Virus record (IMG/VR): IMGVR_UViG_3300044731_001110
Location: 1 to 64,000 of that record
Reading direction: 5' to 3' (one strand)
Length of the DNA stretch: 64,000 nt
DNA from: a virus
Shown here: positions 5,234-36,004 of the stretch, piece by piece
How positions within the stretch are numbered: position 1 is the stretch's first letter
Layout: every line of letters starts with the position of its first letter
The notes under the pieces: model-generated
The model's database searches: none
What the model was told of the DNA's origin: nothing
The model's input: the letters and a program-made list of their open reading frames with translations, nothing else
Program-made: the position numbers and the translations under genes

Positions 5234-5240
5234 TATTTAT
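5234..5240 (+). promoter_or_regulatory. TATTTAT element upstream of the papain-fusion gene
   Basis: GTATTTATTAATAAAAAG lies immediately before the ATG at 5252, with 11 bp from the element to the start. It forms a divergent pair with 5214-5220. Confidence 0.5.
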
Positions 5241-5251
5241 TAATAAAAAGA

Positions 5252-17399: not shown

Positions 17400-17418
17400 A
17401 ATTTTATATAATAAAAGT

Positions 17419-19124: not shown

Positions 19125-19127
19125 TTT

Positions 19128-19583
19128 ATGAAAGAGAAAAAAATATATTGGTTTACCGGTCAACCAGGAGCAGGAAAAACGGTTTTAGCTTTAATGTTAA
19201 AAACAATTTTAGAAAAAGAATATGGAAATAATGTTTTTCATATTGATGGTGATGAATTAAGAAGACTATTTAACAATCAAAAATACGGTAGAGAAGGTCG
19301 TGAAGAAAATATTAAACGAGCTCAAGATATTGCCAAGTTTCTTTTGGTACAAGGTTATGATGTTGTTGTTAGTCTTGTAGCACCTTATAAAGAATTAAGA
19401 GAAAGTTTTAAATATGATTTACAAAATTTATTAGTTGAATTTTATGTTCATACAACAGATGTTAGGGGTAGAGAACATTTTCATACTGATGAATATGAAT
19501 CACCAACAGAAAACTTCATTGACATTGATACGACAAATATTGATCCGCAAGAATCATTAAATCAAATTATTAAATATATATGA
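19128..19583 (+). CDS. cysC: Adenylylsulfate (APS) kinase
   Basis: A 151-residue P-loop kinase, shorter than typical CysC (about 200). The Walker A is GQPGAGKT (residues 11-18). The APS-kinase segments FHIDGDELRRLF and GREGREENIKRAQDIAKFL are clear, while the later lid/APS region (RGREHFHTDEYESPTEN) is shortened and diverged. It phosphorylates APS to PAPS, the donor for the sulfotransferase just upstream. It overlaps the next gene by ATGA. The shortened C terminus leaves some room for another small-molecule kinase, but the sulfotransferase neighbour supports CysC. Confidence 0.85.
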   Translation: MKEKKIYWFTGQPGAGKTVLALMLKTILEKEYGNNVFHIDGDELRRLFNNQKYGREGREENIKRAQDIAKFLLVQGYDVVVSLVAPYKELRESFKYDLQNLLVEFYVHTTDVRGREHFHTDEYESPTENFIDIDTTNIDPQESLNQIIKYI

Positions 19584-20044
19584 CTTGGTCTGTAAAAAAT
19601 CACGGTGGATTCCCAACATCAAACACCGATAAAAAATATGCAATATTTATAGGTAGATTCCAACCCTATCATTTAGGACATATCGAAATGGTACAACAAA
19701 AATTAAACGAAGGTATACCGGCATTAGTTATGGTTAGGGACATTGAACCTGACGAGAAAAATCCTTTTACAACAGAACAAACAGTATCAATGATTGAAAA
19801 ATATCATAAATCAAAAGGTGATGATGTAAAAGTTGTTATTATTCCAGATATAGAGTCTGTTAATTACGGTCGTGGTGTTGGTTATGAAATAAATGAGTTT
19901 ACACCACCAAAAGACATTGGTGGTATTTCTGCAACCGGAATTAGAAATTGTATTAAAAATAATGATGAATATTGGAAAAAATTGGTTGATGAGTCAATAC
20001 AAGAAGATGTTGTAAACTATTTAAATTATGAAAACACAAAGTAA
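19580..20044 (+). CDS. NadM-like nucleotidyltransferase (HxGH family)
   Basis: A 154-residue cytidylyltransferase-like protein with IGRFQPYHLGH (H31, H34), NPFTTEQTVSMI and a closing SATGIRNCI (ISxTxIR-type motif). The pattern is closest to archaeal-type NMN adenylyltransferases (NadM). Such enzymes transfer an NMP from ATP or CTP. It overlaps cysC by 4 bp and the DUF2061 gene by 17 bp, so it belongs to the sulfation operon. Possible roles are NAD synthesis, making an activated precursor, or supplying APS in place of ATP sulfurylase. I see no ATP-sulfurylase-specific residues, so the last is speculative. Confidence 0.75.
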   Translation: MTWSVKNHGGFPTSNTDKKYAIFIGRFQPYHLGHIEMVQQKLNEGIPALVMVRDIEPDEKNPFTTEQTVSMIEKYHKSKGDDVKVVIIPDIESVNYGRGVGYEINEFTPPKDIGGISATGIRNCIKNNDEYWKKLVDESIQEDVVNYLNYENTK

Positions 20045-20499: not shown

Positions 20500-21477
20500 A
20501 TGAGTCAAATAATTACAATACAAAGTATAAATTTTGATGGCGAAATAGCTAATATTTTATTTAAGCCAGACAATTCGGATATCACAATAAATTTAGGTGA
20601 TGTAACATTACCTTTTGTTTTTGATCCTAGTTTGTTAACACCATCAAGAGAGGTTTATGGTTTTTATACAATTTTGGTTGAGGGTTTAGATTGTCCAAAT
20701 GTTTTGAATGTACCAAGACTCACACCAACACCTACGCCAACAAGTACTCCTACAAGAACACCAACTCCGACTCCAACGACAACACCAACAAATACTCCGT
20801 CTAATACACCGACGAATACACCAACTCCTACACCAACAAATACTTCGACGGCAACACCGACGGCAACACCAACTCCTACACCAACTCCTACTTGGGATTT
20901 GTGTGTAACACCGTTGCCACCAAATTTTACTCCGTCTAATACACCAACTAATACACCAACACCAACAAGGACACCAACTAATACACCAACACCAACAAGG
21001 ACACCGGATTGTTACCCAACTCAAACAGCTACGGCAACACCTACTGCAACACCTACAAGGACTCCAACACCGACTCCTACAAGGACTCCAACACCGACTC
21101 CAACACCTGGTGTTACAGTAACTCCAACACCATCACCAGTTCCTGCACCATCAAGAATTTACTATGGTAAATTCACCGGTTCAACAGTGACAAGTGGTGA
21201 TATATTAACATTTAATGTTGTTGTTACAAATGACCCAACAAATTCATATGTAACATTTAATACTGGTAGTGCGTATGGGTATATTTTAATACCAAATTCA
21301 TTACCTCAACCATCTGAGTTTAGAGATAGTAATACTGGTTGTTCTGGTAGTAATATACCGATAAATAATATTGGTACAGTTGTAATTGTAGATGCAAATG
21401 GTTTTTCAATAACATATAACATATATAGGACATTCTTCAGTTTCTTTGGTCAAGTTGATTGCTGGATGTGCGTTTAA
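20500..21477 (+). CDS. Thr/Pro-rich (mucin-like) virion protein
   Basis: A 325-residue protein. The N-terminal 70 residues form a small beta domain ending in [11 protein letters not shown]. Residues 74-208 are almost only [12 protein letters not shown] and PTRTPT units. A C-terminal beta domain of about 110 residues ([19 protein letters not shown]...) ends with CWMCV. There is no signal peptide. The long PT stretch should be an extended linker with a very high density of possible O-glycosylation sites. It sits between the sulfation operon and a fibre gene, so it is probably a virion decoration or fibre-connector protein. Confidence 0.75.
20720..21135 (+). repeat. PT-encoding low-complexity DNA repeat
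   Basis: Short direct repeats such as ACACCAACTAATACACCAAC and ACTCCTACAAGGACTCCAAC recur here and encode the Pro-Thr tract. It is prone to slippage and therefore to linker length variation. Confidence 0.85.
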
Positions 21478-21488: not shown

Positions 21489-24230
21489 ATGATGAGTTTT
21501 TATCTTTCTGGTGGGGTTGAGGTTCTTGGTTTTATATCACCAACAGAACCAACGGATGAATATCCGGTAATAGATCCTTTATATGGTATTGATGGTTTTA
21601 GAAACGTTAATACATTATCTGACTTAAACTCTATCCCAAATCTAAGAAGAAGAGCTGGGATGGTTGTTGGGGTTAGTGGTGGTGCCCAATATTATAAATT
21701 AAATCCTTCGCCATGGAATGGATCAATAACTGATTGGTCAATATTTAATTCTGGAAGTGGTGGTGGTGAAACATTCACTGGTGGTACCGTAACTGGTGAT
21801 ACAATATTTACACAAGGAGTTACAGCTACAACATTTTCAGCAGCGACATATCTTGGATTACCTTTAGATGTTTATGTAACTGGTGGTACGTACTCAAACG
21901 GTATTTTAACTTTCACAAATAATAGTGGCGGAACATTTAATGTTATTGGTTTAAACACAGGAACAACAATAAACTTAAGTGGTGGTACTGGTATTTCTGT
22001 AAGTGGAACAAGCCCAAACTTTATAGTTGAAAACACATTACCAGACCAAATTGTAAATTTAAGTGGTGGGACTAATATAAATGTAACTGGCACGTACCCA
22101 AACTTTGGAATTGAATTTACTGGGGTTGCGTCTAGTTCTTTTACTGGTGGGACCGTTACTGGTGATACAATTTTTACTCAAGGAGTTACCGCAACAACAA
22201 TTAGTGCTACAACATATCAAAATTTACCATTAGATGTTTATGTAACTGGAGGTACATATTCAAATGGAGCAATTGTATTTACAAATAATAGTGGTAGTAC
22301 ATTTAATGTTACCGGTCTTTATACCGGTCAAACAAGTTATGTAAACTCATTAACAACTGGTGTTGGCTTATCAGCCGATACAACAACTGGTAATATAACA
22401 ATTATAAATACAGATCCGGACCAAACTGTAACATTAAGTGGTGGAACCGGAATATTAACCGGGGGAACATATCCTAATTTTACAATAGAAAATAGTTTAC
22501 CAGACCAAACAGTTGTTTTAAATAATGGGTCAAACATTAGTGTTACCGGAACATACCCAAACTTTACAATTGATGTTACCGGTCTTACGGATAATGATAT
22601 ATACGTTACTGGTTTTACATATGATAATAATAACACTTTTACTATAAGTCAAAATTCTGGTACACCTTTAACTGCAACAATAAATGTTGTATCAGGTTTA
22701 ACAGTTAATGGTGATTTAATTATTACTGGAAATACAACTTTAAATACTTTATCAGCAACAACAATTGGTAGTAGTGGTGATTGTGTTAATGACATTTATG
22801 TGTCAAACATTCATTCTTGTTCACCGTTAAATATAAATCCATTAGACGAAGGTAATGTATATTTTGGATCAACAAGTGGTGTTACAATTGATTTAACTAA
22901 TACAAGAATTGGTATTGGAACAATAAGTCCTCAAGCTAAACTACACGTAAGTGGTGATACATTAATTAGTGGTAACACTTCTACCGATATGTTACGTATA
23001 ACCCAAACTGGAACAGGAAACGCGTTTGTTGTTGAAGATTCAACAAATCCTGATACAACACCTTTCATAATAAATTCTGCGGGTACTACAAATATAGGTT
23101 CAACTAACGTTTATACCGACTCAACAAATTTAGCGGCAAAATTACAAGTATCTAATGGAGTGTTTGGTGGGTCATTGTCAGGATTAGCATCAAGTACAAC
23201 GGCAATTATACAAGCTAATACAACAAACTCTTTAGGTTTATTATCGCCAAACGCAAATACATCAACATTATATTTAGGCACACCATCAGATGTTTATGGG
23301 TCAATAATGCAATGGCAATACACAAATAAAAGACTTTATTTTGGTACTCAATCAAGTAATAGTCAAATAAGATTTACAACTGGTGCTGGGACTGAGAGAG
23401 TTATTTTTGATGAGAATGGTAATGTGGGTATTGGTACATTATCCCCAACTGAAAAACTACAAGTATCTGGTAACGCGTTAATATCAGGAAATTTAACTGC
23501 AACAACAATTAGTGCTACAACATATCAAAATTTACCAACAGATATTAGAGTTACTGGTGCTACATACTCAAATAATAATTTTACATTCACAAATAATACT
23601 GGTGGTACTTTTAATGTGTCATTTAATAGTGTAACAGGATTAACTGTTAATGGAAATTTAACTGTTACTGGTAATACAAATGTTAGAGCGGTAACAGGAA
23701 CAACAGCATTATTTTCGGGTTCCGGACAAAATATTTTAACAGTAATTGGTTCTGGTAATACAACATCATCACCATTATTTACAGTTCAAGGATCAAGTGG
23801 TGAATTATTTAGTGTTACAGATAGTTTAGTTGGTTCATTATATAGTGTTAATGATATATCCGGATTACCAATTTTGGAAGTATTTTCAGATAATACAATA
23901 TTGATGGGGTCATATCAAGCACCATCATTAAATACAACAACAAAAGTTACAGCTACAACTGGAACAACAAATGTATACTCAATACCAACAAGTGCCTATA
24001 CCGGAGCTTTCTTTGATTACATAGTAAGTGATGGTACAAATTTAAGAGCTGGAAATATTATGTCCATATGGAGTGGTTCATCAGTTAATTATACAGAAAC
24101 ACAAACAACAGATTTTGGTAATACATCTGGATTAACATTTAATATGGTTGTATCAAGTGGTAATGCAATTTTAAGAACTTCTGGTGTAACTGGTAACTGG
24201 ACTGTTAAAACAATTGTAAGGAGTATATAA
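21489..24230 (+). CDS. Tail fibre protein with TGGTYSNG repeats
   Basis: A 913-residue fibre. The N-terminal 100 residues are unique (adaptor-like). Then come repeats built from TGGTVTGDTIFTQGVTATT, a SATTYQNLPLDVYVTGGTYS block, and FTNNSGGTFNVTGL, and LSGGTGIxVxGTxPNFTIE units, all beta-rich. Two copies of the fibre motif IGTxSPxxKLxVSG lie in the second half (about residues 475 and 650). The C-terminal 90 residues form a compact domain ending ...NWTVKTIVRSI. It shares the TGGTYxNGxxTFxNNSGGTF unit with fibre 1. Two adjacent ATG codons (21489, 21492) are equally possible starts. It is followed 3 bp later by LamG-like genes. Confidence 0.82.
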   Translation: MMSFYLSGGVEVLGFISPTEPTDEYPVIDPLYGIDGFRNVNTLSDLNSIPNLRRRAGMVVGVSGGAQYYKLNPSPWNGSITDWSIFNSGSGGGETFTGGTVTGDTIFTQGVTATTFSAATYLGLPLDVYVTGGTYSNGILTFTNNSGGTFNVIGLNTGTTINLSGGTGISVSGTSPNFIVENTLPDQIVNLSGGTNINVTGTYPNFGIEFTGVASSSFTGGTVTGDTIFTQGVTATTISATTYQNLPLDVYVTGGTYSNGAIVFTNNSGSTFNVTGLYTGQTSYVNSLTTGVGLSADTTTGNITIINTDPDQTVTLSGGTGILTGGTYPNFTIENSLPDQTVVLNNGSNISVTGTYPNFTIDVTGLTDNDIYVTGFTYDNNNTFTISQNSGTPLTATINVVSGLTVNGDLIITGNTTLNTLSATTIGSSGDCVNDIYVSNIHSCSPLNINPLDEGNVYFGSTSGVTIDLTNTRIGIGTISPQAKLHVSGDTLISGNTSTDMLRITQTGTGNAFVVEDSTNPDTTPFIINSAGTTNIGSTNVYTDSTNLAAKLQVSNGVFGGSLSGLASSTTAIIQANTTNSLGLLSPNANTSTLYLGTPSDVYGSIMQWQYTNKRLYFGTQSSNSQIRFTTGAGTERVIFDENGNVGIGTLSPTEKLQVSGNALISGNLTATTISATTYQNLPTDIRVTGATYSNNNFTFTNNTGGTFNVSFNSVTGLTVNGNLTVTGNTNVRAVTGTTALFSGSGQNILTVIGSGNTTSSPLFTVQGSSGELFSVTDSLVGSLYSVNDISGLPILEVFSDNTILMGSYQAPSLNTTTKVTATTGTTNVYSIPTSAYTGAFFDYIVSDGTNLRAGNIMSIWSGSSVNYTETQTTDFGNTSGLTFNMVVSSGNAILRTSGVTGNWTVKTIVRSI

Positions 24231-24232
24231 AA

Positions 24233-24904
24233 ATGGCACATAATTATTCACCTAAAATAATAACTGAAGGTCTTGTATTATATCTTGATGGTGCAAATAC
24301 TCGTTCATATCTTGGTAGTGGTACTGCTTGGGTGGATTTATCTCGCGGTGGAAATAATGGTACATTAACTAATGGCCCTACGTTTAATAGTGGAAATGGT
24401 GGAAATATTTTATTTGATGGTACGGATGATTATGTTAATATTGGCACTCAAGATTTAGGAATAACAAGAGATTTTACAATAAGTTTCTGGGCAAACATAA
24501 CAAAAAATGGTGTTGTTGAAATATTTAATAAAGGGTATAATATCCCGGATTATGGAATTTATTTAGCTAAAGTAACGTCAAATAAATTAACATTACAATC
24601 TTACCCATTTTTAAATCTAGATACTATTTCTACTGTATCATCTGGTATTACATACTATACAGCGGTTAGAAGTAATACAAATTGTTATTGGTATATAAAT
24701 GGGGTACAAGACAATAGTACCGTTATTGTTTCTACAAATATAAATCAATCTAATTTAAAACAATGGAGAATAGGTAGTAATTTTGATGTGGTAAGACCAA
24801 CTTTTGGTGGTAATATATATTCTTTTAGTGTATATAATAAAGGTTTAACACAAACTGAAGTTTTACAAAACTATAACACAACTAAATCAAGATTTGGACT
24901 ATAA
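24233..24904 (+). CDS. LamG/concanavalin-like protein 1
   Basis: A 223-residue single-domain protein of the LamG (concanavalin A-like jelly roll) type common in phage virions: IITEGLVLYLDGANTRSY, DLSRGGNNGTLTNGPTF, NILFDGTDDYVNIG, then strands ending in a YSFSVYNKGLTQTEVLQNYN segment. Such domains bind carbohydrate or decorate capsids and fibres. It overlaps the next gene by TAATG. The three LamG-like genes of this block share the frame-ending EVLQNxNxTKxRF/Y, showing tandem duplication. Confidence 0.82.
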   Translation: MAHNYSPKIITEGLVLYLDGANTRSYLGSGTAWVDLSRGGNNGTLTNGPTFNSGNGGNILFDGTDDYVNIGTQDLGITRDFTISFWANITKNGVVEIFNKGYNIPDYGIYLAKVTSNKLTLQSYPFLNLDTISTVSSGITYYTAVRSNTNCYWYINGVQDNSTVIVSTNINQSNLKQWRIGSNFDVVRPTFGGNIYSFSVYNKGLTQTEVLQNYNTTKSRFGL

Positions 24905-25620
24905 TGGCTGGAAGAGTATCATATTACGGAAACATAGTAAAAGATGGTTTAGTGTTAGATTTAGATGCTGCTAAGTTACAATCATACCCAAGAACCGGAA
25001 CATTATGGAATGATATAAGTGGATTTCAAAATAACGGCACATTAACTAATGGACCGACATTTAATAGTGTAAATGGCGGTAGCATTGTTTTTGATGGGAC
25101 AAATGATTATGTGGATTGTGGTAACGGATCCTCAACTATGTTAACAACTAATGGAACATTATCTGTTTGGTGTAAAATTAACACATATACAGGGACAACA
25201 CCATATTGGAGTATTGTTGGTAGGGGCGGTGAGGCCGGTTTTGATACTAATGGTTATACCATTTGGTATTGGAATGAGTTTGGTAGGATATCGGGAACCA
25301 TTGCAAATAGATCACCCATTGAAAGATTAAGTATAACAAATAGTTTTGGTACATCAGGTTCGGTAGGTAATAATATTACTAATTTTACAATGACTTGGGA
25401 TATGACAAGTCTTAAAATATTTACTAATGGAGTTTTAATTTCAACTAACTTATATTCTTTTGGTGCTGGTGACACTACATCAACTTCTTTTTTTGTCGGT
25501 AAGGGACCTCTTAATCGTTACGCACCCGTCAATGTATATCAAACATTGGTCTACAATAGAACATTATCTAACGCCGAAGTTTTACAAAACTATAATGCAA
25601 CTAAAGGAAGATATTTATAA
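24904..25620 (+). CDS. LamG/concanavalin-like protein 2
   Basis: A 238-residue paralogue of the upstream protein: VKDGLVLDLDAAKLQSYPRTGTLW, DISGFQNNGTLTNGPTF, SIVFDGTNDYVDCGNGS, and the closing LVYNRTLSNAEVLQNYNATK. It has the same jelly-roll order and no linker or signal peptide. It starts inside the stop of protein 1 (TAATG) and is followed 3 bp later by a small gene. Likely a virion-surface lectin-like protein; the ligand is unknown. Confidence 0.82.
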   Translation: MAGRVSYYGNIVKDGLVLDLDAAKLQSYPRTGTLWNDISGFQNNGTLTNGPTFNSVNGGSIVFDGTNDYVDCGNGSSTMLTTNGTLSVWCKINTYTGTTPYWSIVGRGGEAGFDTNGYTIWYWNEFGRISGTIANRSPIERLSITNSFGTSGSVGNNITNFTMTWDMTSLKIFTNGVLISTNLYSFGAGDTTSTSFFVGKGPLNRYAPVNVYQTLVYNRTLSNAEVLQNYNATKGRYL

Positions 25621-25623: not shown

Positions 25624-25887
25624 ATGGAAACACAAGATTACGAACAAAGACAATTTATGATATTTAATGTATCAGAATTAACTAACATTGATTTTTCACA
25701 AGTATTAGAAACATCAATTGACACAGTTAGAAAAAGTATTGACGAAACTAAAACATTTGTAAAATGGGATGGTGATACAATTCCGTCAAGTGTTGATAGT
25801 TTAACAACAAAAGAAGGTCCTTATACCTATCAAGAAATTATTGATATTTTAAATACACCAGAGTGGACATCAAATGAAATGATATGA
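25624..25887 (+). CDS. Small conserved-looking hypothetical protein between LamG genes
   Basis: An 87-residue acidic protein with no domain I can name. The sequence looks folded: FNVSELTNIDFSQVLETSID, a TFVKWDGDTIPSSVDSL segment, and PYTYQEIIDILNTPEWTS. It is coupled on both sides (3 bp gap upstream, ATGA-type overlap with LamG 3 downstream), which supports it as real. It may be an assembly partner of the LamG proteins. Confidence 0.7.
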   Translation: METQDYEQRQFMIFNVSELTNIDFSQVLETSIDTVRKSIDETKTFVKWDGDTIPSSVDSLTTKEGPYTYQEIIDILNTPEWTSNEMI

Positions 25888-26612
25888 GTACGGTACAAGG
25901 AGGTTGGCGAGGACCAAACATTACAAAGGATGGTTTATTAATATATCTGGACCCAAGTTCACCAAATTCGTACTATCAATTACAAGGAGGAACAACCTTA
26001 AAAGATATTTCTGGCGGTGGAAGAAATGGTTCATTAGTTAATACTCCAACATTTAGTACGACGGTTGGTGGTATGTTTACATTTAATGGTACAAATCAAT
26101 ACATTAATTGTGGTAACTCAGCTGCCTTACAAATTACTCAAGGAACAATTAGTGCTTGGGTTAGAGCTACAAGTGGTAATAGTAGTTTTAGGGGTATTGT
26201 TGTAAAACAAAATGCTTGGGGACTTTTTTTAAATAGTAATGTATTAATTGCTTTTGATTGGGGTAACTATTATGCTAGTGGATTTGATATAAATCAAGGA
26301 ATTAGAAGTACCGGAATAAATCTTGGAACAAATACTTGGACAAATGTTACAATGACCTTCTCCCAAACAGTAGGTGTTGCAACACCAGGACCACCAAATA
26401 ATAATGTGATTATTTATGTAAACGGTTTACCAGTATTAACAACAACAACTTTACACCTTGATCACACAGCACCAATCCAACTTGCTTGGGCTAATTTTGC
26501 TGGACAATATTTAATAGGTGATATTGCACAAGGATTGGTATATACCAAAGTTTTAACAGCAACAGAAGTTTTACAAAACTTTAATGCAACTAAATCAAGA
26601 TTTGGTTTGTAG
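25884..26612 (+). CDS. LamG/concanavalin-like protein 3
   Basis: A 242-residue third paralogue: ITKDGLLIYLDPSSPNSYYQ, DISGGGRNGSLVNTPTF, MFTFNGTNQYINCGNSA, and a closing LVYTKVLTATEVLQNFNATK. It is less similar in its middle, with a proline-rich PGPPNNNVIIYVNGLPVL loop. It overlaps the 87-residue gene by 4 bp. Expected to be a virion-surface carbohydrate-binding or decoration protein. Confidence 0.82.
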   Translation: MSTVQGGWRGPNITKDGLLIYLDPSSPNSYYQLQGGTTLKDISGGGRNGSLVNTPTFSTTVGGMFTFNGTNQYINCGNSAALQITQGTISAWVRATSGNSSFRGIVVKQNAWGLFLNSNVLIAFDWGNYYASGFDINQGIRSTGINLGTNTWTNVTMTFSQTVGVATPGPPNNNVIIYVNGLPVLTTTTLHLDHTAPIQLAWANFAGQYLIGDIAQGLVYTKVLTATEVLQNFNATKSRFGL

Positions 26613-26625
26613 TATACTTATCAAT

Positions 26626-26844
26626 ATGTCACATCAACTAACAATATCTGGAACTACTGGTACGCCACCATACGATGTGTATGTTTGTGATATTACAAAC
26701 ACTTATTGTTATTTAGTTTCTGGTGGAACATACATATCCGTATATACCTTTGAGGTCCCACAACCATTAAATAACGTTGGTTCACTACTTGTAAAACTTA
26801 TCGATTCAAACAGTTGTGAAATATTTAATTTTTATGAGTGTTAG
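26626..26844 (+). CDS. Small hypothetical protein (72 aa)
   Basis: I start this at the ATG at 26626 (MSHQLTISGTTGTPPYDVYV), just after the LamG 3 stop, not at an earlier in-frame ATG inside LamG 3. It looks like one small beta domain with four cysteines (VCDITNTYCYLVSGG; DSNSCEIFNFYEC). The family is not recognised. Its stop lies in the 5' arm of a hairpin before the next gene. Confidence 0.65.
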   Translation: MSHQLTISGTTGTPPYDVYVCDITNTYCYLVSGGTYISVYTFEVPQPLNNVGSLLVKLIDSNSCEIFNFYEC

Positions 26845-26860: not shown

Positions 26861-28105
26861 ATGACAATATTTGTACAAATCGCATCTTATAGAGACCCCC
26901 AGTTTATACCAACAATTAAAGATATGTTGGATAAAGCAAAATACCCAGAAAATTTAAGATTAGGTATTGCTAGACAATTTCACCCAGATGATAAGTTTGA
27001 TGATTTAAGTGAATATGAAAATGATGAACGTTTTAGAATTTTAAATATCCCTTACACAGAATCAACAGGAGTTTGTTGGGCAAGACATCAAGTACAACAG
27101 TTATATAGTGGTGAAACATATACATTACAGTTGGATTCACATATGCGTTTTGAAAAAAACTGGGATGAAGAGTTAATTAATATGTTAGTTGACTTACAAA
27201 TTGACGGTTATCAAAAACCGTTATTGACTGGTTATGTGTCGTCTTTTGATCCAGAGAATGACCCAGAAGGTAGAGTAACAGAACCGTGGAGAATGGTATT
27301 TGATAGATTTACACCAGAAGGTGTTGTTTTCTTTTTACCAGAAGTAATACCAGGATGGCAAGAATTACAAAAACCAATTCCCTCAAGATTTTATTCGGCA
27401 CACTTTTGTTTTACATTAGGTGAGTTTTCAGTTGAGGTCCAACACGACCCGGAATATTATTTTCACGGAGAAGAAATATCAATTGCTGTTCGAGCTTATA
27501 CACACGGATATGATTTATTCCATCCACATAAAATTGTAATTTATCACGAATACACAAGAAAGAATAGAACAAAACAGTGGGATGATAATAAAGAATGGTG
27601 GAAAAAAAATAATTCATCACACGAAAAAAATAGAAAAGTTTTAGGGGTTGATGGTGAAAAATATAAAGGTAAATTAAAATATGGTTTTGGGAAAATTAGA
27701 ACAATCAAAGACTATGAAAAATATGCAGGAATTAGATTTAAAAATAGATCTGTACAACAATATACAATAGATAAAAATTACCCACCAAATCCACATAACT
27801 TTAAAAATGAAAAGGAATGGGAAGAATCTTTTTTACAAATTTTTAAACATTGTATTGATTTACCACTAGATAAAATCCCATATGGTGATTATGAATTTTT
27901 TGTTGTTGCATTTCATGATAAAAATGATGAAACGTTGTATAGAAGAGATGCACAACCAGATGAAATTAAAACCATAAAAAGTGATCCAGATGGTTATGGA
28001 AAGATATGGCGAGAATTTAACACAAAAGAAAAACCAAAATATTGGGTTGTGTGGCCATATTCAAAATCAAAAGGATGGTGTGATAGATTAGTTGGTGATT
28101 TATGA
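26861..28105 (+). CDS. GT60-like polypeptide GlcNAc transferase
   Basis: A 414-residue protein. The first 240 residues match the GlcNAc-transferase family (PF11397/GT60) pattern: FVQIASYRDPQFIPTIKDML, ENLRLGIARQFHPDD, a GVCWARHQVQQLYSGE segment and the donor/metal motif LQLDSHMRFEKNWDEEL (D92, H94). Known members add GlcNAc to hydroxyproline (Skp1) or to threonine of trypanosome mucins. Residues 240-414 form an extra domain rich in Lys and Tyr. It overlaps the next gene by ATGA. Mucin-like PT/TT proteins flank it on both sides, so the Thr of those linkers is the natural candidate acceptor (inference). Confidence 0.82.
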   Translation: MTIFVQIASYRDPQFIPTIKDMLDKAKYPENLRLGIARQFHPDDKFDDLSEYENDERFRILNIPYTESTGVCWARHQVQQLYSGETYTLQLDSHMRFEKNWDEELINMLVDLQIDGYQKPLLTGYVSSFDPENDPEGRVTEPWRMVFDRFTPEGVVFFLPEVIPGWQELQKPIPSRFYSAHFCFTLGEFSVEVQHDPEYYFHGEEISIAVRAYTHGYDLFHPHKIVIYHEYTRKNRTKQWDDNKEWWKKNNSSHEKNRKVLGVDGEKYKGKLKYGFGKIRTIKDYEKYAGIRFKNRSVQQYTIDKNYPPNPHNFKNEKEWEESFLQIFKHCIDLPLDKIPYGDYEFFVVAFHDKNDETLYRRDAQPDEIKTIKSDPDGYGKIWREFNTKEKPKYWVVWPYSKSKGWCDRLVGDL

Positions 28106-29766
28106 TTACGTTAGTAACCGGTCTTTGGGATATTGGTAGAGGATCCTTAAATGAAGGATGGAATAGATCTTTTAACTATTATTTAGAAAAATTTAATGAA
28201 TTATTAAAAATTGATTGTAACTTAATTATTTTTGGTGATGACAACCTTGAGACTTTTGTTAAAGAAAGAAGGAATATGTCAAAAACAAAATTTATTAAAA
28301 GAAGTTTAGATTGGTTTAAAAATAATGAATTTTATAATAAAATACAAGAAATAAGAACTAACCCCGATTGGTATAATCAAGTTGGTTGGTTAAAAGAATC
28401 CACACAAGCGAGATTAGAATTTTATAATCCACTTGTTATGTCTAAAATGTTTTTATTACACGACGCATTACTTTTGGACCCATTTAACTCCGAAAAATTG
28501 TATTGGATTGATGCTGGAATATCAAACACAGTTAATATCGGTTATTTTACACACGACAATGTTTTAGAAAAAATTGATAACTTATTTGATAAGTTTTCTT
28601 TTATTGTTTTTCCATATGAAGCAAACACAGAAGTTCACGGATTCAATCATTCAAAAATGTGTGATTACGCAAAAGAAAAAACTGAATTTGTTGCAAGAGG
28701 TGGATTTTTTGGTGGCACCAAAGAAACAATAAAAGAAATGAATAGTTTATATTATTTTCTTTTAAAAGACACATTAAAAAATAACTTAATGGGTACCGAA
28801 GAAAGTATATTCACAATTATGACTTATTTGCATCCGTCTCTAATTGATTATACTAAAATAAACTCCGATGGTCTTTTATACAAATTTTTTGAAGACGTAA
28901 AAAATAATAATGTTATTATTGAGACAAACCAAAAAATAATAAAACAAAATTATGGTTCCGGAGTTGGTTTGTATGTTATTACATTTAATTCGCCAAATCA
29001 ATTTGAAACTCTGATTAAATCAATGTTGGGTTATGATCCAGACTTTATTTATAAAACAAAAAAGTTTCTATTAAATAATTCAACCGATTATAATACAACA
29101 CCTAGGTATTTGGAGTTATGTGAAAAATACGGTTTTGAACATATAAAGAAAAATAACATTGGTATTACTGGTGGTAGACAATTTATTGCGGAACATTTTA
29201 ATGAACAAGAAGATTTAGGTTATTATTACTTTTTTGAGGATGATATGTTTTTTACTAACCCAAATTCTGGAGTTTGTAAAAACGGTTTTAATCGAAACGT
29301 TAATAATTTATTTTCAAATTCTTTAACAATATTGAAAAAAGAAAATTTTGATTTTTTAAAATTAAACTTCACAGAATTTTTTGGTAGTAATAATACACAG
29401 TGGGCTTGGTATAATGTCCCACAAGACTTTAGAGAAAAACATTGGTCAAATAAACCAAGCTTACCAAGTGAAGGTTATGATCCGGATGCACCAAAAACAA
29501 ATTTTAAAAATATAAATTCATATAATGGAATCCCATACACAAATGGTGAAATATATTTATGTAATTGGCCGATATTATTATCAAAAGAAGGAAATTACAA
29601 GTGTTATTTAAAACAAAAATTTCAATTTCCATACGAACAAACTTTGATGTCATACAATTTCCAAGAAACAATAAAGGGAAATTTAAATCCTGGATTACTT
29701 TTAATTACACCAACTGAACATAATAGATTTGAATTTTATGACGCTTCATTAAGAAAAGAATGTTGA
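28102..29766 (+). CDS. Two-domain glycosyltransferase: HtrL/WlaTC-like plus GT-A-like domain
   Basis: A 554-residue fusion. Residues 1-280 resemble the HtrL_YibB/WlaTC family: TLVTGLWDIGRGSLNEGW, LIIFGDDNLETFV, PLVMSKMFLLHDAL, then KLYWIDAGISNTVN. WlaTC-like proteins are linked to surface glycan synthesis. Residues 295-554 look like a second GT-A domain: LYVITFNSPNQFETLIKSML, FLLNNSTDYNTTPRYLEL, a NIGITGGRQFIAEHF segment and an acidic FFEDDMFFTNP metal site. It overlaps the GT60-like gene by ATGA, so the two probably act in sequence. Donors are unknown. Confidence 0.75.
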   Translation: MITLVTGLWDIGRGSLNEGWNRSFNYYLEKFNELLKIDCNLIIFGDDNLETFVKERRNMSKTKFIKRSLDWFKNNEFYNKIQEIRTNPDWYNQVGWLKESTQARLEFYNPLVMSKMFLLHDALLLDPFNSEKLYWIDAGISNTVNIGYFTHDNVLEKIDNLFDKFSFIVFPYEANTEVHGFNHSKMCDYAKEKTEFVARGGFFGGTKETIKEMNSLYYFLLKDTLKNNLMGTEESIFTIMTYLHPSLIDYTKINSDGLLYKFFEDVKNNNVIIETNQKIIKQNYGSGVGLYVITFNSPNQFETLIKSMLGYDPDFIYKTKKFLLNNSTDYNTTPRYLELCEKYGFEHIKKNNIGITGGRQFIAEHFNEQEDLGYYYFFEDDMFFTNPNSGVCKNGFNRNVNNLFSNSLTILKKENFDFLKLNFTEFFGSNNTQWAWYNVPQDFREKHWSNKPSLPSEGYDPDAPKTNFKNINSYNGIPYTNGEIYLCNWPILLSKEGNYKCYLKQKFQFPYEQTLMSYNFQETIKGNLNPGLLLITPTEHNRFEFYDASLRKEC

Positions 29767-29779: not shown

Positions 29780-29793
29780 AGTAAAAACTATTG

Positions 29794-31026
29794 ATGGAAT
29801 TTTTTATTAAAAAAAATGCCACACTTCCTCTTTTAAAAATGCAAGTCGTAAAAGACGGGAGAAGTGACTATAATAATATGATGGATCTTATTGAGGAATC
29901 TTCAATCTTCTTTTCGATGGTTGATGTTGAAACTGGGATTCCAAGAATAAGTACAAGACCAGCGGGTTATGTAAATAAAATATTACTAGACCCAAATGCG
30001 GAACCTGAATATTATGTATACTACCAATTTTCAAATTTTGATACAAGAAAAGTCGGTAGATATGAAGGTCAATTTTTATTTGTTAATGACCAAGGTACTT
30101 TAATTTTACCAATAAGGGATAAGTTATTTATTAATATCCAAGAAAGTTTTATTGGTGATGGTTTGACATACGATAATAATTGTTATGTGATTGATTATCC
30201 TTGTTGTAATCCTTCACCACCAGTTACTGCAACAACAACTACAATTTGTTATGTACCACCAACACCAACACCTTCACCAATTCCATTAGTAATAACATTA
30301 ACAACAGTTGTAACTCCTGGTTCAATCGTTATTGATTATTACTTAACAGCAAATAAAGTTGTTGACCAAAATGTTGATTTATTTTTTGACCACGTTTTAG
30401 GTGTTTATACCGGAAGTCCAATAACAATATCAACTGGTGTTACAATAAATCAAGGTGGAACAACTGGAACAACACAAGTTATATTACCAGATAATTTTGA
30501 TAATTTAACAAGAAATGATCAATACCAAAATGTAACAACAATTCCTAGTGGAATAACATATATAATTTCTGGAGACACATTCCCAGTAACACCAACCCCA
30601 ACACCGAGTCCAACTCCAACACCGAGTCCAACTCCGGAAATAATACAAAATGCAATTCTAACAAATAATAATGAGTATATTGGTATTGGGACAAATGAGT
30701 ATTTAAGTTATGTTGATGTAACTTATTTTGTTGAGACAAATATTCAAAGCGGGTCAACAATTACAACTTTTTCAGTAACCGGTTCGACACCATATAGTAG
30801 TGATGTGATTATACCTTTAAGTGTTGTATTAGATTTAACAACCGGTGGTACAATAACAATAAGTGATTCTGTAACAATACCACAAGGTGAAATAGTTGGT
30901 ACTAAAACAAATACAAACCCATTAAACTATAATAGTTTAAATAAAAATGCGGAATTAAGAATACAACAACCAAATAATACATTTGTTAATTGTTTATTTT
31001 TAGCTTACCCAATAAATTTTGAATAA
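29794..31026 (+). CDS. Virion protein with Thr/Pro linkers and repeated beta domains
   Basis: A 410-residue protein; the ATG at 29794 is preferred over a TTG one codon earlier. Residues 1-130 form an N-terminal domain (FFIKKNATLPLLKMQVVKDG) like phage structural proteins. Short linkers follow (TATTTTICYVPPTPTPSPIP near 150 and TPTPTPSPTPTPSPTPE near 270). Each linker leads into a beta domain of about 110-120 residues, and the two are alike (VDQNVDLFF...GVTINQGG; VTIPQGEIVGTKTN). Probably a fibre-adaptor or decoration protein. It precedes giant fibre 3. Confidence 0.72.
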   Translation: MEFFIKKNATLPLLKMQVVKDGRSDYNNMMDLIEESSIFFSMVDVETGIPRISTRPAGYVNKILLDPNAEPEYYVYYQFSNFDTRKVGRYEGQFLFVNDQGTLILPIRDKLFINIQESFIGDGLTYDNNCYVIDYPCCNPSPPVTATTTTICYVPPTPTPSPIPLVITLTTVVTPGSIVIDYYLTANKVVDQNVDLFFDHVLGVYTGSPITISTGVTINQGGTTGTTQVILPDNFDNLTRNDQYQNVTTIPSGITYIISGDTFPVTPTPTPSPTPTPSPTPEIIQNAILTNNNEYIGIGTNEYLSYVDVTYFVETNIQSGSTITTFSVTGSTPYSSDVIIPLSVVLDLTTGGTITISDSVTIPQGEIVGTKTNTNPLNYNSLNKNAELRIQQPNNTFVNCLFLAYPINFE

Positions 31027-31054: not shown

Positions 31055-34000
31055 ATGGCAACTTTAACAGGAAAAACAATTGGTGAATTAACACTTCTAA
31101 CTGGAATTACAAATAATACATTATTTCCGGTAGAATATAATTTAACAACATATCATATTCCATACTCCGGTATTAGTAATTTCCTAACCGGAGGTACCTA
31201 TTCAAATGGTTCAATAACATTTACAAATAATCAAGGAAGTAGTTTTGTTGTATCTGGTTTATACACTGGATCAACAGATTTTTATGTTACTGGTGGTACA
31301 TACTCAAATGGTACAATTACTTTAGACAGACAAAATGGTTCTGTATCAATTACTGGTTTATATACTGGTTCTACCGATGTATTTGTTACTGGTGGTACCT
31401 ATGATAACACAACTGGTACATTAACTCTAGAAGATAATAACGGAACGTCATTTGGTGTAACTGGATTTACAACTGGTGGTACTGGGACTTCTTTATATGA
31501 AGTTGGTTCTGGAACTGACTCAACACAAAGGGTTGGTGTTAACTCGGCAGCATTAGGTAATATTTCAATTATTGCTGGAGGTTCTGGAAATACCGCAAGT
31601 GGTTATGTTTCAGTTATTAGTGGTGGTATACTTAACACATCGTTAGGTGACTGTTCTGTTATTGGTGGTGGTTCTTGTAATACATCCGGAATTAATGGTA
31701 TTGTTGATTCGATATATAACCAAACTTTTACCGGTAATATTCCATCTAGTGGTTTTTATGGTTCATTTTCACCATCATCAACACTTTCTGGTCTTGGTAC
31801 TGGTTCAACTTTTTCTTTTTACTTTTCATCTCCAACAACTTTAAGTAATGTTTATATTGGTAATCAAGGTAGTGGATATGTTAGTGGTGACACTTTAACA
31901 TTTAACGGAACAATATTTGGTGGTGCTGTACCACAAGATAATGTTACACTACAAATCACAACAACAAATGGCGGTTCAAACATTGTTGTTGGTGGTGGTT
32001 GTAGAAATACAGCAAATAGAAACTCATCAACAATCAGTGGTGGGATTTTAAATAAAAGTAACGCAAACTGCTCAACAATCGGTGGCGGTTGTTGTAATAT
32101 TATCACAAAAGACTCTTGTTACTCAACAATTAGTGGTGGTAGAAGAAATACTGGATACGGTTGTTACGGAGTAATTAGTGGTGGTCGTTGTAACGAAGCT
32201 GGTGCTTACGGTACAATAACTGGAACATATAATCAAGTATATACTGGTGGTACCTTAAACGGAACTTTTTCTGGTGGGTACGGCCCAACATCAACAACAT
32301 CTGTTTATGGTGATGATGCCTTATTTGGTTTTGTCTTTAATTCTGGAACTTTATCTAGTGTTAAAATTGTTAATGGTGGTAATCTATATAGTGGAAATGA
32401 TACTTTATTTTTTAATGGTAATATATTTCCTGGTGGAACAACTGGTATTGATGATGTAACATTTCAAGTTAGTACATCAATAAATAACTATGCAACAGTA
32501 GCTGGTGGATGTTGTAATACTGCATCTGGTGAATACTCAACAATTAGTGGTGGGTATGAAAATACAGTATCCGGTGATTATTCAACTATTGGTGGGGGTT
32601 CTTGTAACACAATTAATACTAATTCGTGCTATTCAACTATTGGTGGTGGTGACGATAATACAATCCTTCAAGGTGATGTTGCAACAATTAGTGGTGGTGA
32701 AAATAATACGATAAGTGGTGATTATTCATTTATTGGCGGTGGTTATGATAATATAATAACAAGTTCTTGTGCTACAATTAGTGGTGGATTTAACAATACC
32801 GCTAGTGGTTACAATTCATTTATTGGTGGTGGAGAAAATAACGTTTCTGGGCGAAATAATTTTGTTGACGGAATAAATAGTTCTGTATATACTGGTGGTA
32901 CTTTGAATAATACTTACGGTGGTATCTCACCAACATCAACATCAAGTGGTACTGGGTCTGGAGCATTATTTAGTTTTGATTTTGTTCTTGGTGTATTACA
33001 AACCATCCAAATACAAAACGGAGGTTCTGGTTATTCTAATGGTGAAACACTATATTTTAACGGTGGATTATTTGGTGGTGGTTCATCTCCTTTAGATGAT
33101 GTTTGGTTAAACATCAATACAAACAATAGTACACATACAACAATAAGTGGTGGTCGTCAAAATACATCAAGTAATTTTTATTCAACAGTAAGTGGTGGTA
33201 GACAAAATACAGCAAGTGGAAATTCTTCAACCGTAAGTGGTGGTCTTGAAAATACAGCAAGTTGTTTTGGATCAACAGTAAGTGGTGGTGTCCTTAACAC
33301 ATCAAGTAACAATTATTCAACAATAAGTGGTGGATTTAGAAACACATCAAGTGGTTATAATTCAACCGTAAGTGGTGGTTATCGTAACACATCAAGTAAT
33401 TATTTTTCAACCGTAAGTGGTGGTCGTAATAATGTTTCCGAAAACCAATTTGATACAATTGGTGGTGGGTGTTGTAATACAACAATATTAAGTGGTGGCG
33501 CAACGGGTGCTGCAACAATAAGTGGTGGTGAGTGTAACACATCAGGAAATTACTACACATTTAATGGTGGTGGTTGTAGAAACGTTACACTAGGTGAATT
33601 TTCAACAATAGGAGGTGGATTAGGAAATACAAATTATGGTGGTTTTGTAACCTCAATTAGTTTTAATTCTGGTAGTTTATCTGGAATCACAGATAACACA
33701 TATACAGTTAATCCAACTAGTTTAGTTGGTTATGGTTCAAACTTACAATTTAGTTTTGATGTTAGTGGTGGTGTTGTTAGTAACATTATAATCATAAATC
33801 CAGGTGTAAGATATGAACAAGGAGAACAAGTTTTAGTTTCTGGTAATACTATTGGTGGTTCATCACCAGCAAATGATTTAACCTTTAATTTAGATGATGT
33901 TGTAACTTCAGAATTTTCTTTTATTGGTGGTGGTGGGTGTAACACCTCAATAGGTTTTGCATCATCAATTCTTGGTGGGCTTTCTAATACTGCAAGTGGT

Positions 34001-36004
34001 GATTACTCAACAGTTGGTGGTGGTGGATCATCATCTGGATATAATGGAAATTTAGCATTAGGTGATTATTCTGTAATTGGTGGTGGTAATCAAAACACAT
34101 CTCAAAATGATTTTGCGGCAGTTTTTGCTGGTTCTGGTAACACTTCGTCAGGTTATTATAGCATTATTGGTGGTGGAATAAGAAATACAAATACAAACGA
34201 TCTTGGTTTTCTTGGTGGTGGTTTTTGTAATACATCAAGTGGTTATGATGGAGTACTTGGTGGTGGTGGATGTAATACATTAAATAATTTACTTGGTGGT
34301 GTAATTGCCGGTGGTAGATTAAATACTGTTGTTGGTATATTCACAAACACAATTGGGGGTGGTTTTGGAAATAACGTATCTACATTTGGTGCTGCAACAA
34401 TTAGCGGTGGATATTTTAATACAACAAATAGTGACTACTCAACAATAGGTGGTGGTTCATCAAATACTATAGATTCAATAACAACACAATCTGGCTATTA
34501 TGTTCTTGGGTCAACAATAGGTGGGGGTTCTTTTAATACAATTTCATCATATAGTTCATATTACGATTCTAATGGTAACACAATTGCCGGAGGAAATGGT
34601 AATACAACAGTATCATCTTATTATAATGGACAAACAATTGGTGGAGGTAGTAGGAACATTACATTTAATGATTATACAACAGTTAGTGGTGGTTTTAACA
34701 ATACATCAAGTGGTTGTTTTTCAACCGTAAGTGGTGGTCGTCAAAATACAGCAAGTTGTAATTATTCAAATGTAAGTGGTGGTCGTCAAAATACATCAAG
34801 TGGATATCTTTCAACCGTAAGTGGTGGTCGTTTAAACATATCAAGTGATAATTCTTCAACCGTAAGTGGTGGTTATTGTAACACATCAAGTAATTTGTAT
34901 TCAACAGTAAGTGGGGGACGTAGAAACACATCAAGTGGTCAATATTCAACAATAAGTGGTGGGTACCGTAACCTATCATTAAATGATGGATCATTTATAG
35001 GTGGTGGTTTTTGTAACACATCAAGTGGTCAATATTCAACAATAAGTGGTGGTTATTATAACACCGCTAACGGTAATAATTCATTAGTTTCAGGAGGATT
35101 TTCAAATATAATACTTACATCAACAATTTCTAATTATATTAATTACGGATCGGTAATTGCTGGTGGTAATAATAACTTTATTACTTGTATGGACACAAAT
35201 AGCGCATATTGTATATATGGTCAAACTATTGGTGGTGGTTCTTTTAATACAATATCTAATTATTATGTGGGTGGAACTAATAATATAAACTCTAGCACTA
35301 TTGCGGGTGGTAATTGTAATTTGATTAATAGTGGTATTGGTGGTAATGTTATTAGTGGAGGTATTAATAACACATCAAGTGGTCAATATTCAACCGTAAG
35401 TGGTGGTTTTTGTAACACGTCAAGTGGTTCTAATTCAACCGTAAGTGGTGGTGGTGAAAACACATCAAGTGGTGGTGATTCAACTATTGGAGGTGGTCGT
35501 AATAACATAACATTGTGTAATTTCGCAACTGTAAGTGGTGGTTATCGTAACACATCAAATAGTTGTTGTGGTTCAGTTGGAGGAGGTTCTTGGAACACAA
35601 TTAGTGGTGCTAGATCCGTTATTGCTGGAGGTGGGGGTTCTTGTGCCGCATTAGGAAATAGAGCAATATGTGATTTTACCTCAGTACTCGGTGGTTCCGC
35701 AAATTTAGCTTGTTGTTCTTATGCTACTGTCGGTGGTGGTTTTTGTAACACATCAATTGGGACTCGTTCAACCGTAAGTGGTGGATATCGTAACACAGTA
35801 ATAAATGGTTGTTCTGCAATACTTGGGGGTCAATGTAATACAACCCAACACGATTGTTCATTTATAGTTGGTAGTGGAATATGTAGTACTGCCGCAAACA
35901 CAACTCACGTAAACTGTCTACACTTTAGTAATATACCAACAAGTTCAGCAGGTCTTGCACCAGGAACAGTATGGAATAATGGTGGTGTACTAAACATAGC
36001 ATAA
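31055..36004 (+). CDS. Giant beta-roll tail fibre/adhesin 3 (1649 aa)
   Basis: The largest fibre of the adhesin region. The N-terminal 60 residues are adaptor-like (LTGKTIGELTLLTG), followed by three TGGTYSNG shaft repeats and the LYEVGSGTDSTQR joint shared with fibre 2. From about residue 165 to the C terminus it consists of 15-residue repeats (STVSGGRQNTSSGYN type). They are broken by four inserted beta modules of about 80-95 residues. Many repeats contain Cys (SGGCCNT, CSTIG). The tip (SNIPTSSAGLAPGTVW and GGVLNIA) has the usual phage-fibre end. Near-identical 45-bp repeats at 33.1-33.4, 34.7-35.1 and 35.4 kb imply recent expansion. Confidence 0.87.
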   Translation: MATLTGKTIGELTLLTGITNNTLFPVEYNLTTYHIPYSGISNFLTGGTYSNGSITFTNNQGSSFVVSGLYTGSTDFYVTGGTYSNGTITLDRQNGSVSITGLYTGSTDVFVTGGTYDNTTGTLTLEDNNGTSFGVTGFTTGGTGTSLYEVGSGTDSTQRVGVNSAALGNISIIAGGSGNTASGYVSVISGGILNTSLGDCSVIGGGSCNTSGINGIVDSIYNQTFTGNIPSSGFYGSFSPSSTLSGLGTGSTFSFYFSSPTTLSNVYIGNQGSGYVSGDTLTFNGTIFGGAVPQDNVTLQITTTNGGSNIVVGGGCRNTANRNSSTISGGILNKSNANCSTIGGGCCNIITKDSCYSTISGGRRNTGYGCYGVISGGRCNEAGAYGTITGTYNQVYTGGTLNGTFSGGYGPTSTTSVYGDDALFGFVFNSGTLSSVKIVNGGNLYSGNDTLFFNGNIFPGGTTGIDDVTFQVSTSINNYATVAGGCCNTASGEYSTISGGYENTVSGDYSTIGGGSCNTINTNSCYSTIGGGDDNTILQGDVATISGGENNTISGDYSFIGGGYDNIITSSCATISGGFNNTASGYNSFIGGGENNVSGRNNFVDGINSSVYTGGTLNNTYGGISPTSTSSGTGSGALFSFDFVLGVLQTIQIQNGGSGYSNGETLYFNGGLFGGGSSPLDDVWLNINTNNSTHTTISGGRQNTSSNFYSTVSGGRQNTASGNSSTVSGGLENTASCFGSTVSGGVLNTSSNNYSTISGGFRNTSSGYNSTVSGGYRNTSSNYFSTVSGGRNNVSENQFDTIGGGCCNTTILSGGATGAATISGGECNTSGNYYTFNGGGCRNVTLGEFSTIGGGLGNTNYGGFVTSISFNSGSLSGITDNTYTVNPTSLVGYGSNLQFSFDVSGGVVSNIIIINPGVRYEQGEQVLVSGNTIGGSSPANDLTFNLDDVVTSEFSFIGGGGCNTSIGFASSILGGLSNTASGDYSTVGGGGSSSGYNGNLALGDYSVIGGGNQNTSQNDFAAVFAGSGNTSSGYYSIIGGGIRNTNTNDLGFLGGGFCNTSSGYDGVLGGGGCNTLNNLLGGVIAGGRLNTVVGIFTNTIGGGFGNNVSTFGAATISGGYFNTTNSDYSTIGGGSSNTIDSITTQSGYYVLGSTIGGGSFNTISSYSSYYDSNGNTIAGGNGNTTVSSYYNGQTIGGGSRNITFNDYTTVSGGFNNTSSGCFSTVSGGRQNTASCNYSNVSGGRQNTSSGYLSTVSGGRLNISSDNSSTVSGGYCNTSSNLYSTVSGGRRNTSSGQYSTISGGYRNLSLNDGSFIGGGFCNTSSGQYSTISGGYYNTANGNNSLVSGGFSNIILTSTISNYINYGSVIAGGNNNFITCMDTNSAYCIYGQTIGGGSFNTISNYYVGGTNNINSSTIAGGNCNLINSGIGGNVISGGINNTSSGQYSTVSGGFCNTSSGSNSTVSGGGENTSSGGDSTIGGGRNNITLCNFATVSGGYRNTSNSCCGSVGGGSWNTISGARSVIAGGGGSCAALGNRAICDFTSVLGGSANLACCSYATVGGGFCNTSIGTRSTVSGGYRNTVINGCSAILGGQCNTTQHDCSFIVGSGICSTAANTTHVNCLHFSNIPTSSAGLAPGTVWNNGGVLNIA
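31687..31985 (+). other. Inserted beta module 1 of fibre 3
   Basis: Interrupts the 15-residue repeats with DSIYNQTFTG and later GSGYVSGDTLTFNGTIFGG, then a DNVTLQI strand. Confidence 0.7.
32200..32490 (+). other. Inserted beta module 2 of fibre 3
   Basis: Same layout as module 1: TGTYNQVYTGGTLNGTF, later NGNIFPGGTTGIDDVTFQV. Confidence 0.7.
32855..33130 (+). other. Inserted beta module 3 of fibre 3
   Basis: DGINSSVYTGGTLNNTYGG, then GSGYSNGETLYFNGGLFGGG and LDDVWLNI. Confidence 0.7.
33140..33440 (+). repeat. 45-bp tandem repeats, block 1 of fibre 3
   Basis: Units of the form TCAACCGTAAGTGGTGGT plus 27 variable bases recur every 45 bp (for example 33182 and 33227). They are far more alike than repeats elsewhere in the gene. 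Confidence 0.85.
33635..33905 (+). other. Inserted beta module 4 of fibre 3
   Basis: The most diverged copy: FVTSISFNSGSLSG, then GVRYEQGEQVLVSGNTIGG and NDLTFNL. Confidence 0.65.
34675..35065 (+). repeat. 45-bp tandem repeats, block 2 of fibre 3
   Basis: Nine or so consecutive 45-bp units with near-identical cores (TCAACCGTAAGTGGTGGTCG), each encoding one STVSGGxxNTSSGxx turn. Confidence 0.85.

Follow-up and report, generated by a model that had tools for sequence, protein, structure and literature searches.

A GT60-family glycosyltransferase gene linked to proline- and threonine-rich proteins in phages and bacteria: a candidate for mucin-type O-glycosylation in prokaryotes

Why does a large lake phage carry a gene of the GT60 family, which is known mainly from protists, in the neighborhood of genes for proteins with proline/threonine tracts? 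The question is raised by a 64-kb stretch (hereafter, the window) of a 69,146-base IMG/VR virus record (IMGVR_UViG_3300044731_001110; GC content ~0.31). A match to a T4-type tail tube protein, below its cut-off, at 52942-53430 and a match to a baseplate hub protein at 53508-54302 suggest a contractile-tailed phage. No tRNA genes were found in the 64-kb window, and megablast of 25 kb of the window against phage sequences gave no match. This phage group may, to judge by habitat and size, correspond to the 'moraphages' (PMC12619734). The GT60 gene, the genes directly upstream and downstream of it, the three genes for tract proteins, and the three Laminin_G_3 genes, all described below, are located on the forward strand.

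The gene at 26861-28105 encodes a protein of 414 amino acids, which its Pfam match and its motifs assign to the GT60 family (Pfam GlcNAc) of glycosyltransferases. The sole Pfam match was PF11397 GlcNAc (E 2.1e-70; 238 bits, cut-off 21), and the match to phrog_24687 'glycosyltransferase' (E 6.7e-162) covered the full length. The same family search gave matches in 0 of 14 control genomes. An earlier sequence-only reading of this DNA had recognized a GT60-like GlcNAc transferase by two motifs; the open reading frame and both motifs are real, with CWARHQV located at residues 72-78 and LQLDSHMRF at residues 89-97. In an alignment of 30 relatives, which takes in the homologs from XacN1 and RAS14, the elements CWAR (72-75), DSH (the DxH motif, D92-S93-H94), HGEE (202-205), and His229 were invariant in all 30 sequences. 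The protein thus belongs to GT60 by its sequence profile as well as by its DxH motif. In families GT27 and GT60, DxH replaces the DxD motif, and both are grouped as polypeptide Ser/Thr transferases (PMC7185993). The C-terminal extension of the protein, ~120 residues long, is conserved across relatives. A ricin-type lectin domain, the C-terminal feature of GT27, was not among the Pfam matches up to E 0.01, which comprised only GlcNAc.

The AlphaFold2 model of the GT60 protein, built from a 28-row alignment, is of moderate confidence (mean pLDDT 73, with most positions in the segments 121-182 and 203-223 under 50). In a second structural comparison, matches 1 to 29 of the best 50 were all ppGalNAc-transferases (GT27) from human, mouse, fly, and Toxoplasma, with Z scores of 12.5 to 11.0 over 218-247 residues and sequence identities of 10-16%. 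The best of these alignments had Z 12.5 and rmsd 3.9 over 231 residues, and the next family followed at Z 10.9. Foldseek gave a different ranking, with wall-teichoic-acid transferases first and TarS, RmlT, and SpsA placed above GalNAc-T2. Since the families are tied at the border (Z 11.0 versus 10.9), the fold can be described as nearest to GT27 and no more, and the comparison hardly reached the C-terminal 120 residues. With this reading of the Z scores, the model supports a GT-A fold that is near GT27 and polypeptide-transferase-like. The first strand of the modeled fold begins at residue 2, which would leave no room for a signal peptide in the GT60 protein of the window. A sequence search of solved structures found no relative; its best match, to T7 RNA polymerase (E 0.46), was rejected as chance.

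Proline/threonine tracts were sought in all called genes of the window as stretches with at least 12 TP, PT, SP, or PS dipeptides per 40 residues. Three genes were found. The first, at 20500-21477, encodes a candidate acceptor of 325 amino acids with a long Pro/Thr tract (~20719-21223; 26 dipeptides). The second, at 29791-31026, encodes a candidate acceptor of 411 amino acids with a short TPTPTPSPTPTPSPTP tract of ~20 residues (~30577-30643; 16 dipeptides); most relatives retain the N-terminal part of this protein. The third, at 5228-8143 (971 amino acids; tract at ~6278-6398; 16 dipeptides), displays a C-terminal match to the peptidase family phrog_16701. The sequence-only reading had placed Pro/Thr proteins on both sides of the GT60 gene, and they are indeed the first two of these. 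Neither touches it: 20500-21477 lies eight genes upstream and 29791-31026 two genes downstream, starting with TTG at 29791 and not at 29794 as had been given. The immediate 5' neighbor of GT60, at 26584-26844, encodes an 86-amino-acid protein which itself has no tract; gene comparison showed that homologs at the same place do carry one (e.g., L018, L024, and L028).

Several further genes of the window deserve description. Three lectin-like and virion-structural-like Laminin_G_3 proteins are encoded upstream of GT60 (24233-24904, 24904-25620, and 25884-26612). The 1649-residue protein encoded at 31055-36004 is built of SGGxxNTASGxxSTxxGG-type repeats, which we take to resemble the head of trimeric autotransporter adhesins. 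This protein and that encoded at 21489-24230, both near GT60, are rich in Thr and poor in Pro. Genes for a sulfotransferase (PF13469), an adenylylsulfate kinase (PF01583), and a CTP_transf_like protein are arranged in tandem at 18306-20044, flanked by GT8/GT9-like genes and by the Pro/Thr protein gene at 20500; virion glycans of this phage are possibly sulfated. The other glycosyltransferases of the window (15749-18300 and 1021-2334) are one GT8, two GT9-like, and one GT4-like protein, the GT9- and GT4-like matches being below cut-off.

Evidence that tract proteins belong to the virion comes from relatives of the window. PHROGs gave no virion family for 29791-31026, and 20500-21477 matched one family of unknown function. 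The tract proteins of other loci matched virion structural families of PHROGs, namely phrog_8510 (L048), phrog_10938 (L083 and L084), phrog_14478 (L091), and phrog_15100 (L101). In phage XacN1, which possesses both GT60 and its partner gene described below, ORF325 follows directly after two baseplate wedge genes and encodes a protein of 3313 amino acids with tracts at residues 3091-3112 and 3148-3159. Proteomic analysis of XacN1 revealed at least two glycoproteins, whose names and sites are absent from the main text of the report (PMC5852040); the GT60 homolog, ORF334, was named by the same authors, who deposited virion spectra as PXD008065 (PMC5852040).

The linkage between GT60 and tract proteins was examined in the best 80 of 198 IMG/VR relatives plus two phage records, i.e., in 82 loci, which dereplication at 93% GT60 identity reduced to 40 loci besides the window. 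A Pro/Thr protein was present somewhere in the available stretch in 71 loci of the redundant set of 82. In the 40 dereplicated loci from this best-80-plus-two set, it was encoded within three genes of GT60 in 29 and was absent there in 11. Pro/Thr-rich proteins occupied 30 of 76 places one or two genes upstream of GT60 versus 20 of 392 places four or more genes away in the same 40 loci (Fisher 3.7e-14, for loci that are not independent), and the association falls off within three genes. As a group, these loci show what is expected for mucin-like acceptors, a low-complexity tract of Pro and Thr/Ser beside the gene of the presumed initiating transferase.

Whole records of 16 chosen representatives were additionally searched with a strict TPTPTPTP-type DNA pattern. 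Two of the 16 contained no tract of this kind and 14 were informative. In these 14 large records, the nearest tract was closer to GT60 than random (combined p 8e-5), with three in which it was no closer than chance (p 0.44, 0.59, and 0.90). In some genomes, clusters of such tracts also occur ~70 kb from GT60, and we therefore do not assign every tract to this enzyme. For the reverse test, viral stretches were selected by a TP-codon repeat (120 stretches) or, as a control, by the reversed pattern (118 stretches), which is shorter and yields a set higher in GC; GT60 was detected in 8 of the former and in none of the latter. Tract stretches are thus enriched for GT60, though most of them (112 of 120) hold no GT60. 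The loci within groups are related, and the p-values given here accordingly overstate independence.

The gene following GT60, at 28102-29766, overlaps it by four bases and encodes a tandem GT-A protein of 554 amino acids with an N-terminal HtrL_YibB domain and a C-terminal GT2/GT12/GT13-like domain, as recognized by Pfam and by the model (pLDDT 87). The modeled domains comprise residues 1-264, near BoGT6a (Z 13.3), and residues 279-542, near human B4GALNT1 (Z 15.6), POMGnT1 (Z 15.0), and GnT-I (Z 14.6); in the homologs from L085 and L213, Pfam classifies the second domain as GT2. A homolog is located 1-11 genes downstream of GT60 in 39 of the 40 dereplicated loci from the best 80 of 198 relatives plus two phage records. 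Among 50,697 phage records, full-length partner homologs were found only in XacN1, CM1, and RAS14, the same three that possess GT60. Bacterial HtrL_YibB genes adjoin GT60 in L085, L087, L088, L089, and L213. YibB and GT60 form one open frame in L094, and an FkbM methyltransferase is fused to YibB in L087 and L089. Extension of a sugar chain, as proposed in the sequence-only reading, would be a fitting role for this partner.

One genome scan yielded 19 loci for the bacterial sample, two of which (L091 and L101) look viral. GT60 is rare in the bacterial groups searched: it was detected in 7 of 390 genomes from the order of Jiulongibacter and 18 of 398 Burkholderiaceae (E limit 1e-3), and in 3 of 230 Gemmatimonadota, 2 of 248 genomes from the order of the Saprospiraceae MAG, and 1 of 249 from the family of the Sphingomonas MAG (E limit 1e-20). 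Mucin-like neighbors of GT60 were identified in L085 (Saprospiraceae), L086 (another Bacteroidia MAG), L089 (Jiulongibacter sediminis), L151 (a related genome), L096 (Vicinamibacterales), and L103 (Sphingomonas), and those of the Bacteroidota and Acidobacteriota include exported, Tat-type proteins. The one in L085 combines a twin-arginine motif, SPTPTTSVSPSNS repeats, and a Por secretion tail; a sulfotransferase is encoded two genes from GT60 in this locus. In the Gemmatimonadota, PqqD-like twin-arginine proteins with Ser/Thr/Pro tails adjoin GT60 in L090 and L102, and the PqqD-like neighbors in L213 and L214 have short, Ser/Pro-rich tails. The twin-arginine motif occurs in candidate acceptors of seven bacterial loci, so that their modification could take place in the cytoplasm, ahead of export.

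Longest-ORF gene calls fail at high GC because of antisense frames, and all ORFs were therefore used for counts in bacteria. In 17 bacterial loci, Pro/Ser/Thr-rich ORFs (threshold 32 of 50 residues) were concentrated around GT60, with 8 in the 45 kb that lie no more than 1.5 kb from it and 3 in the 205 kb farther away (p 1e-4). The corresponding counts were 9 versus 6 at threshold 28 and 7 versus 2 at threshold 36. One near match, in L092, passes threshold 28, fails at 32, and seems to be an antisense frame. No clear neighbor tract was present in L092, L093, L094, L095, L152, and L215, and the sequence ends at GT60 in L087 and L088.

Some of these loci show additional features. A second, divergent gene of the GT60 family is located on the other side of the mucin-like protein in L089 (7945-8865) and L151 (from 5884). 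The Sphingomonas locus (L103:6387-12480) encodes a 1205-residue protein with a Pro/Thr linker and an Rv2525c glycoside-hydrolase-like domain, the N-terminal part of which resembles, by eye, a baseplate protein of phages or injection systems; two GT60 copies follow.

Another setting was revealed in the Burkholderiaceae. A Trinickia-type subtype of the type VI secretion spike protein VgrG (E <= 1e-230 to the Trinickia protein) is present in exactly the 18 genomes that match PF11397. A Pro-Ser/Thr tail, defined as a stretch past residue 400 with at least 20% Pro and at least 10% Ser/Thr, was detected in 16 of 17 GT60-associated VgrGs from 16 genomes versus 0 of 35 others (Fisher 1.6e-12), the latter drawn from the 85 remaining VgrG matches in the same genomes. 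Two further genomes read by eye both encode tailed VgrGs, one with GPT and PT repeats and one with PT repeats, which raises the proportion to 18 of 19; the lone tailless protein adjoins a tailed copy (L167). The nearest unassociated VgrG (G034:C23; 66% identity) lacks a tail of this kind. In G725, G754, and G656, VgrG and GT60 are on different contigs, so that association rests there on orthology, and the tailed VgrGs form one related group and thus count as one evolutionary association. Within this group (L153-L172, L208, and L209) the tails are long and fast-changing; the repeat units include TP, TEPPP, PPPSET, PPPTEE, TEEPPQ, PEPST, PEPSDEE, DEEPAAS, and GPT, and Pro with Ser/Thr is kept throughout. 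Many of these loci display the order Thr-rich putative secreted protein, GT60, and RHS-like protein.

In a quick tree of 84 GT60 sequences with several long branches, the window protein falls among 22 phage sequences (support 100), a clade to which the Saprospiraceae group is joined. The XacN1 and RAS14 proteins cluster with the type VI group, and separate branches are formed by the groups of Jiulongibacter, Gemmatimonadota, and Acidobacteriota/Sphingomonas. Tract neighbors are therefore present in several separate lineages.

We consider it probable that the gene at 26861-28105 encodes a cytoplasmic GT60 polypeptide O-glycosyltransferase, which initiates mucin-type glycans on the Pro/Thr tracts found in structural proteins of the phage, with the next glycosyltransferase extending the chain and capping varying between genomes. 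The direct basis of this reading is the family, the conservation of motifs, the fold class, the gene pair, and the linkage to Pro-Ser/Thr proteins in distant contexts; we infer the donor, the linkage, the acceptor site, the order of steps, and the benefit to the phage. UDP-GlcNAc is present in bacteria generally. Together with the location of candidate acceptors in the cytoplasm before assembly, firing, or Tat export, and with the activity known from Trypanosoma cruzi, this suggests that GT60 initiates and the partner extends. The enzyme would be metal-dependent and retaining, and would add the first N-acetylhexosamine to Thr, perhaps Ser, in proline-rich repeat tracts before particle assembly. 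The donor would most likely be UDP-GlcNAc of the host, giving alpha-GlcNAc, and the first sugar would be extended by the two-domain protein encoded at 28102-29766. Depending on the genome, capping might be performed by sulfotransferases, carbamoyltransferases, or methyltransferases encoded nearby; candidates are the sulfotransferase and APS kinase of the window, the sulfotransferase of L085, carbamoyltransferases of XacN1 and L089, and the FkbM proteins of L087 and L089. The tracts would thereby become mucin-like, stiff, and shielded spacers between domains of fibers or baseplate proteins.

Known members of GT60 modify hydroxyproline of Skp1 as well as Thr, and an oxygenase gene beside GT60 is the arrangement expected for a Skp1-like hydroxyproline route. 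Genes for 2OG-Fe(II) oxygenases do adjoin GT60 in L152 (9035-10532) and L165 (6033-8279), and these two pairs are a possible bacterial counterpart of the hydroxyproline-GlcNAc route of Skp1. An acceptor of this kind, or Thr/Ser of other neighboring virion proteins such as the Thr-rich products of 21489-24230 and 31055-36004, is nevertheless unlikely for the phage enzyme: a single-sequence search of low sensitivity detected no relative of the L152/L165-type oxygenases in the viral loci or the window, and GT60 is linked to Pro-Ser/Thr tracts in proteins that are otherwise unrelated, the VgrG tails among them.

The remaining alternatives look for the substrate elsewhere. Many phage glycosyltransferases modify the host cell surface, HtrL_YibB genes are linked with LPS loci, and the window also holds GT8, GT9-like, and GT4-like genes. 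GT60 might thus act on LPS or capsule, for instance to exclude other phages, and lie near fiber genes because this is a variable, gene-gaining region; glycosyltransferase clusters of jumbo phages have been interpreted as host-surface modification (PMC7824862). We regard this as improbable, since GT60 and GT27 are polypeptide transferases (PMC7185993) and since the tract association fades within a few genes and recurs in bacterial contigs outside fiber modules. Slightly less probable still is mere hitch-hiking, with the tracts serving as simple fiber linkers and the real substrate of GT60 being unrelated. The many tract stretches lacking GT60 and the distant tract clusters would fit such a view; the outcome of the reverse test speaks against it, as does the retention of Pro and Ser/Thr in VgrG repeat units as unrelated as TP, PPPSET, PEPST, TEEPPQ, and GPT.

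The favored reading, initiation of mucin-type glycans on Pro/Thr tracts, agrees in its core with the mucin-type O-glycosylation of virion linkers that the sequence-only reading had proposed. The GT60 family, the fold, the linkage, the next gene with its two GT-A domains, the virion-like nature of some tract proteins, and the glycoproteins reported for XacN1 support that proposal in part; its restriction to phage virions was too narrow, because GT60 is likewise paired with secreted proteins of bacteria and with type VI VgrGs. We see even chances for a broader view, in which GT60 and the two-domain glycosyltransferase form a sporadic, horizontally moving prokaryotic system for mucin-type O-glycosylation of displayed proteins, i.e., phage fibers and baseplates, the VgrG spike, and surface proteins exported by the Tat or type 9 pathway.

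The nearest known relatives are the alpha-GlcNAc-transferases TcOGNT of T. cruzi and Skp1 GnT1 of Dictyostelium, which share the Pfam family over most of the domain and the DxH motif. In T. cruzi, the target of this activity is Thr of mucin-like proteins, and the assay used KPPTTTTTTTTKPP in the presence of Mn2+ (PMC3769586; PMC9472816); UDP-GlcNAc was the donor and a Pro/Thr peptide the acceptor (PMC3769586). In contrast to these enzymes, the phage and bacterial forms, known here from sequence, appear to be soluble and cytoplasmic, and have the ~120-residue C-terminal extra part and a two-domain glycosyltransferase partner. The GT27 ppGalNAc-transferases, responsible for mucin-type O-glycosylation in animals and Toxoplasma, have the closest solved folds and the common DxH motif (PMC7185993), but differ from the phage protein by the low identity mentioned above and by the ricin-type lectin domain, which Pfam does not show in the latter. 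Phage glycosyltransferases are thought to modify virion proteins in mycobacteriophages, where glycans occur at the C-termini of capsid and tail-tube proteins (Freeman 2023, as cited in PMC12619734), and in XacN1 (PMC5852040), whose ORF334 is a relative of the window GT60. The available portions of these two sources describe no link to Pro/Thr tracts for either case (PMC12619734; PMC5852040). In the openly licensed PMC literature, we found no earlier description of the GT60-Pro/Thr pairing and nothing on GT60 in phages or mucin-like proteins in jumbo phages; PF11397 appeared there for a brown alga and for no phage.

The lipid-linked oligosaccharyltransferases PglL/PilO also place O-glycans on Ser/Thr, often in low-complexity tracts rich in Pro, Ala, and Ser. 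Their transfer is periplasmic and en bloc, whereas the proposed GT60 route would be cytoplasmic and dependent on sugar nucleotides. The established view treats mucin-type O-glycosylation begun by a polypeptide transferase as a eukaryotic trait. What appears new here, judged from sequence comparison, is the setting in which a known enzyme family occurs, together with its conserved partner and a candidate acceptor type that recurs between contexts; the original idea stands in a broader form than stated. If it is true for the cytoplasm of phage-infected cells and bacteria, it would account for the Pro/Thr tracts that are common in structural proteins of phages, and phages and phage-tail-like machines would carry true mucin-like sugar brushes made without lipid-linked intermediates. 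It would also assign a clear function to the prokaryotic GT60 proteins and offer a simple two-gene route to mucin-like proteins in bacteria.
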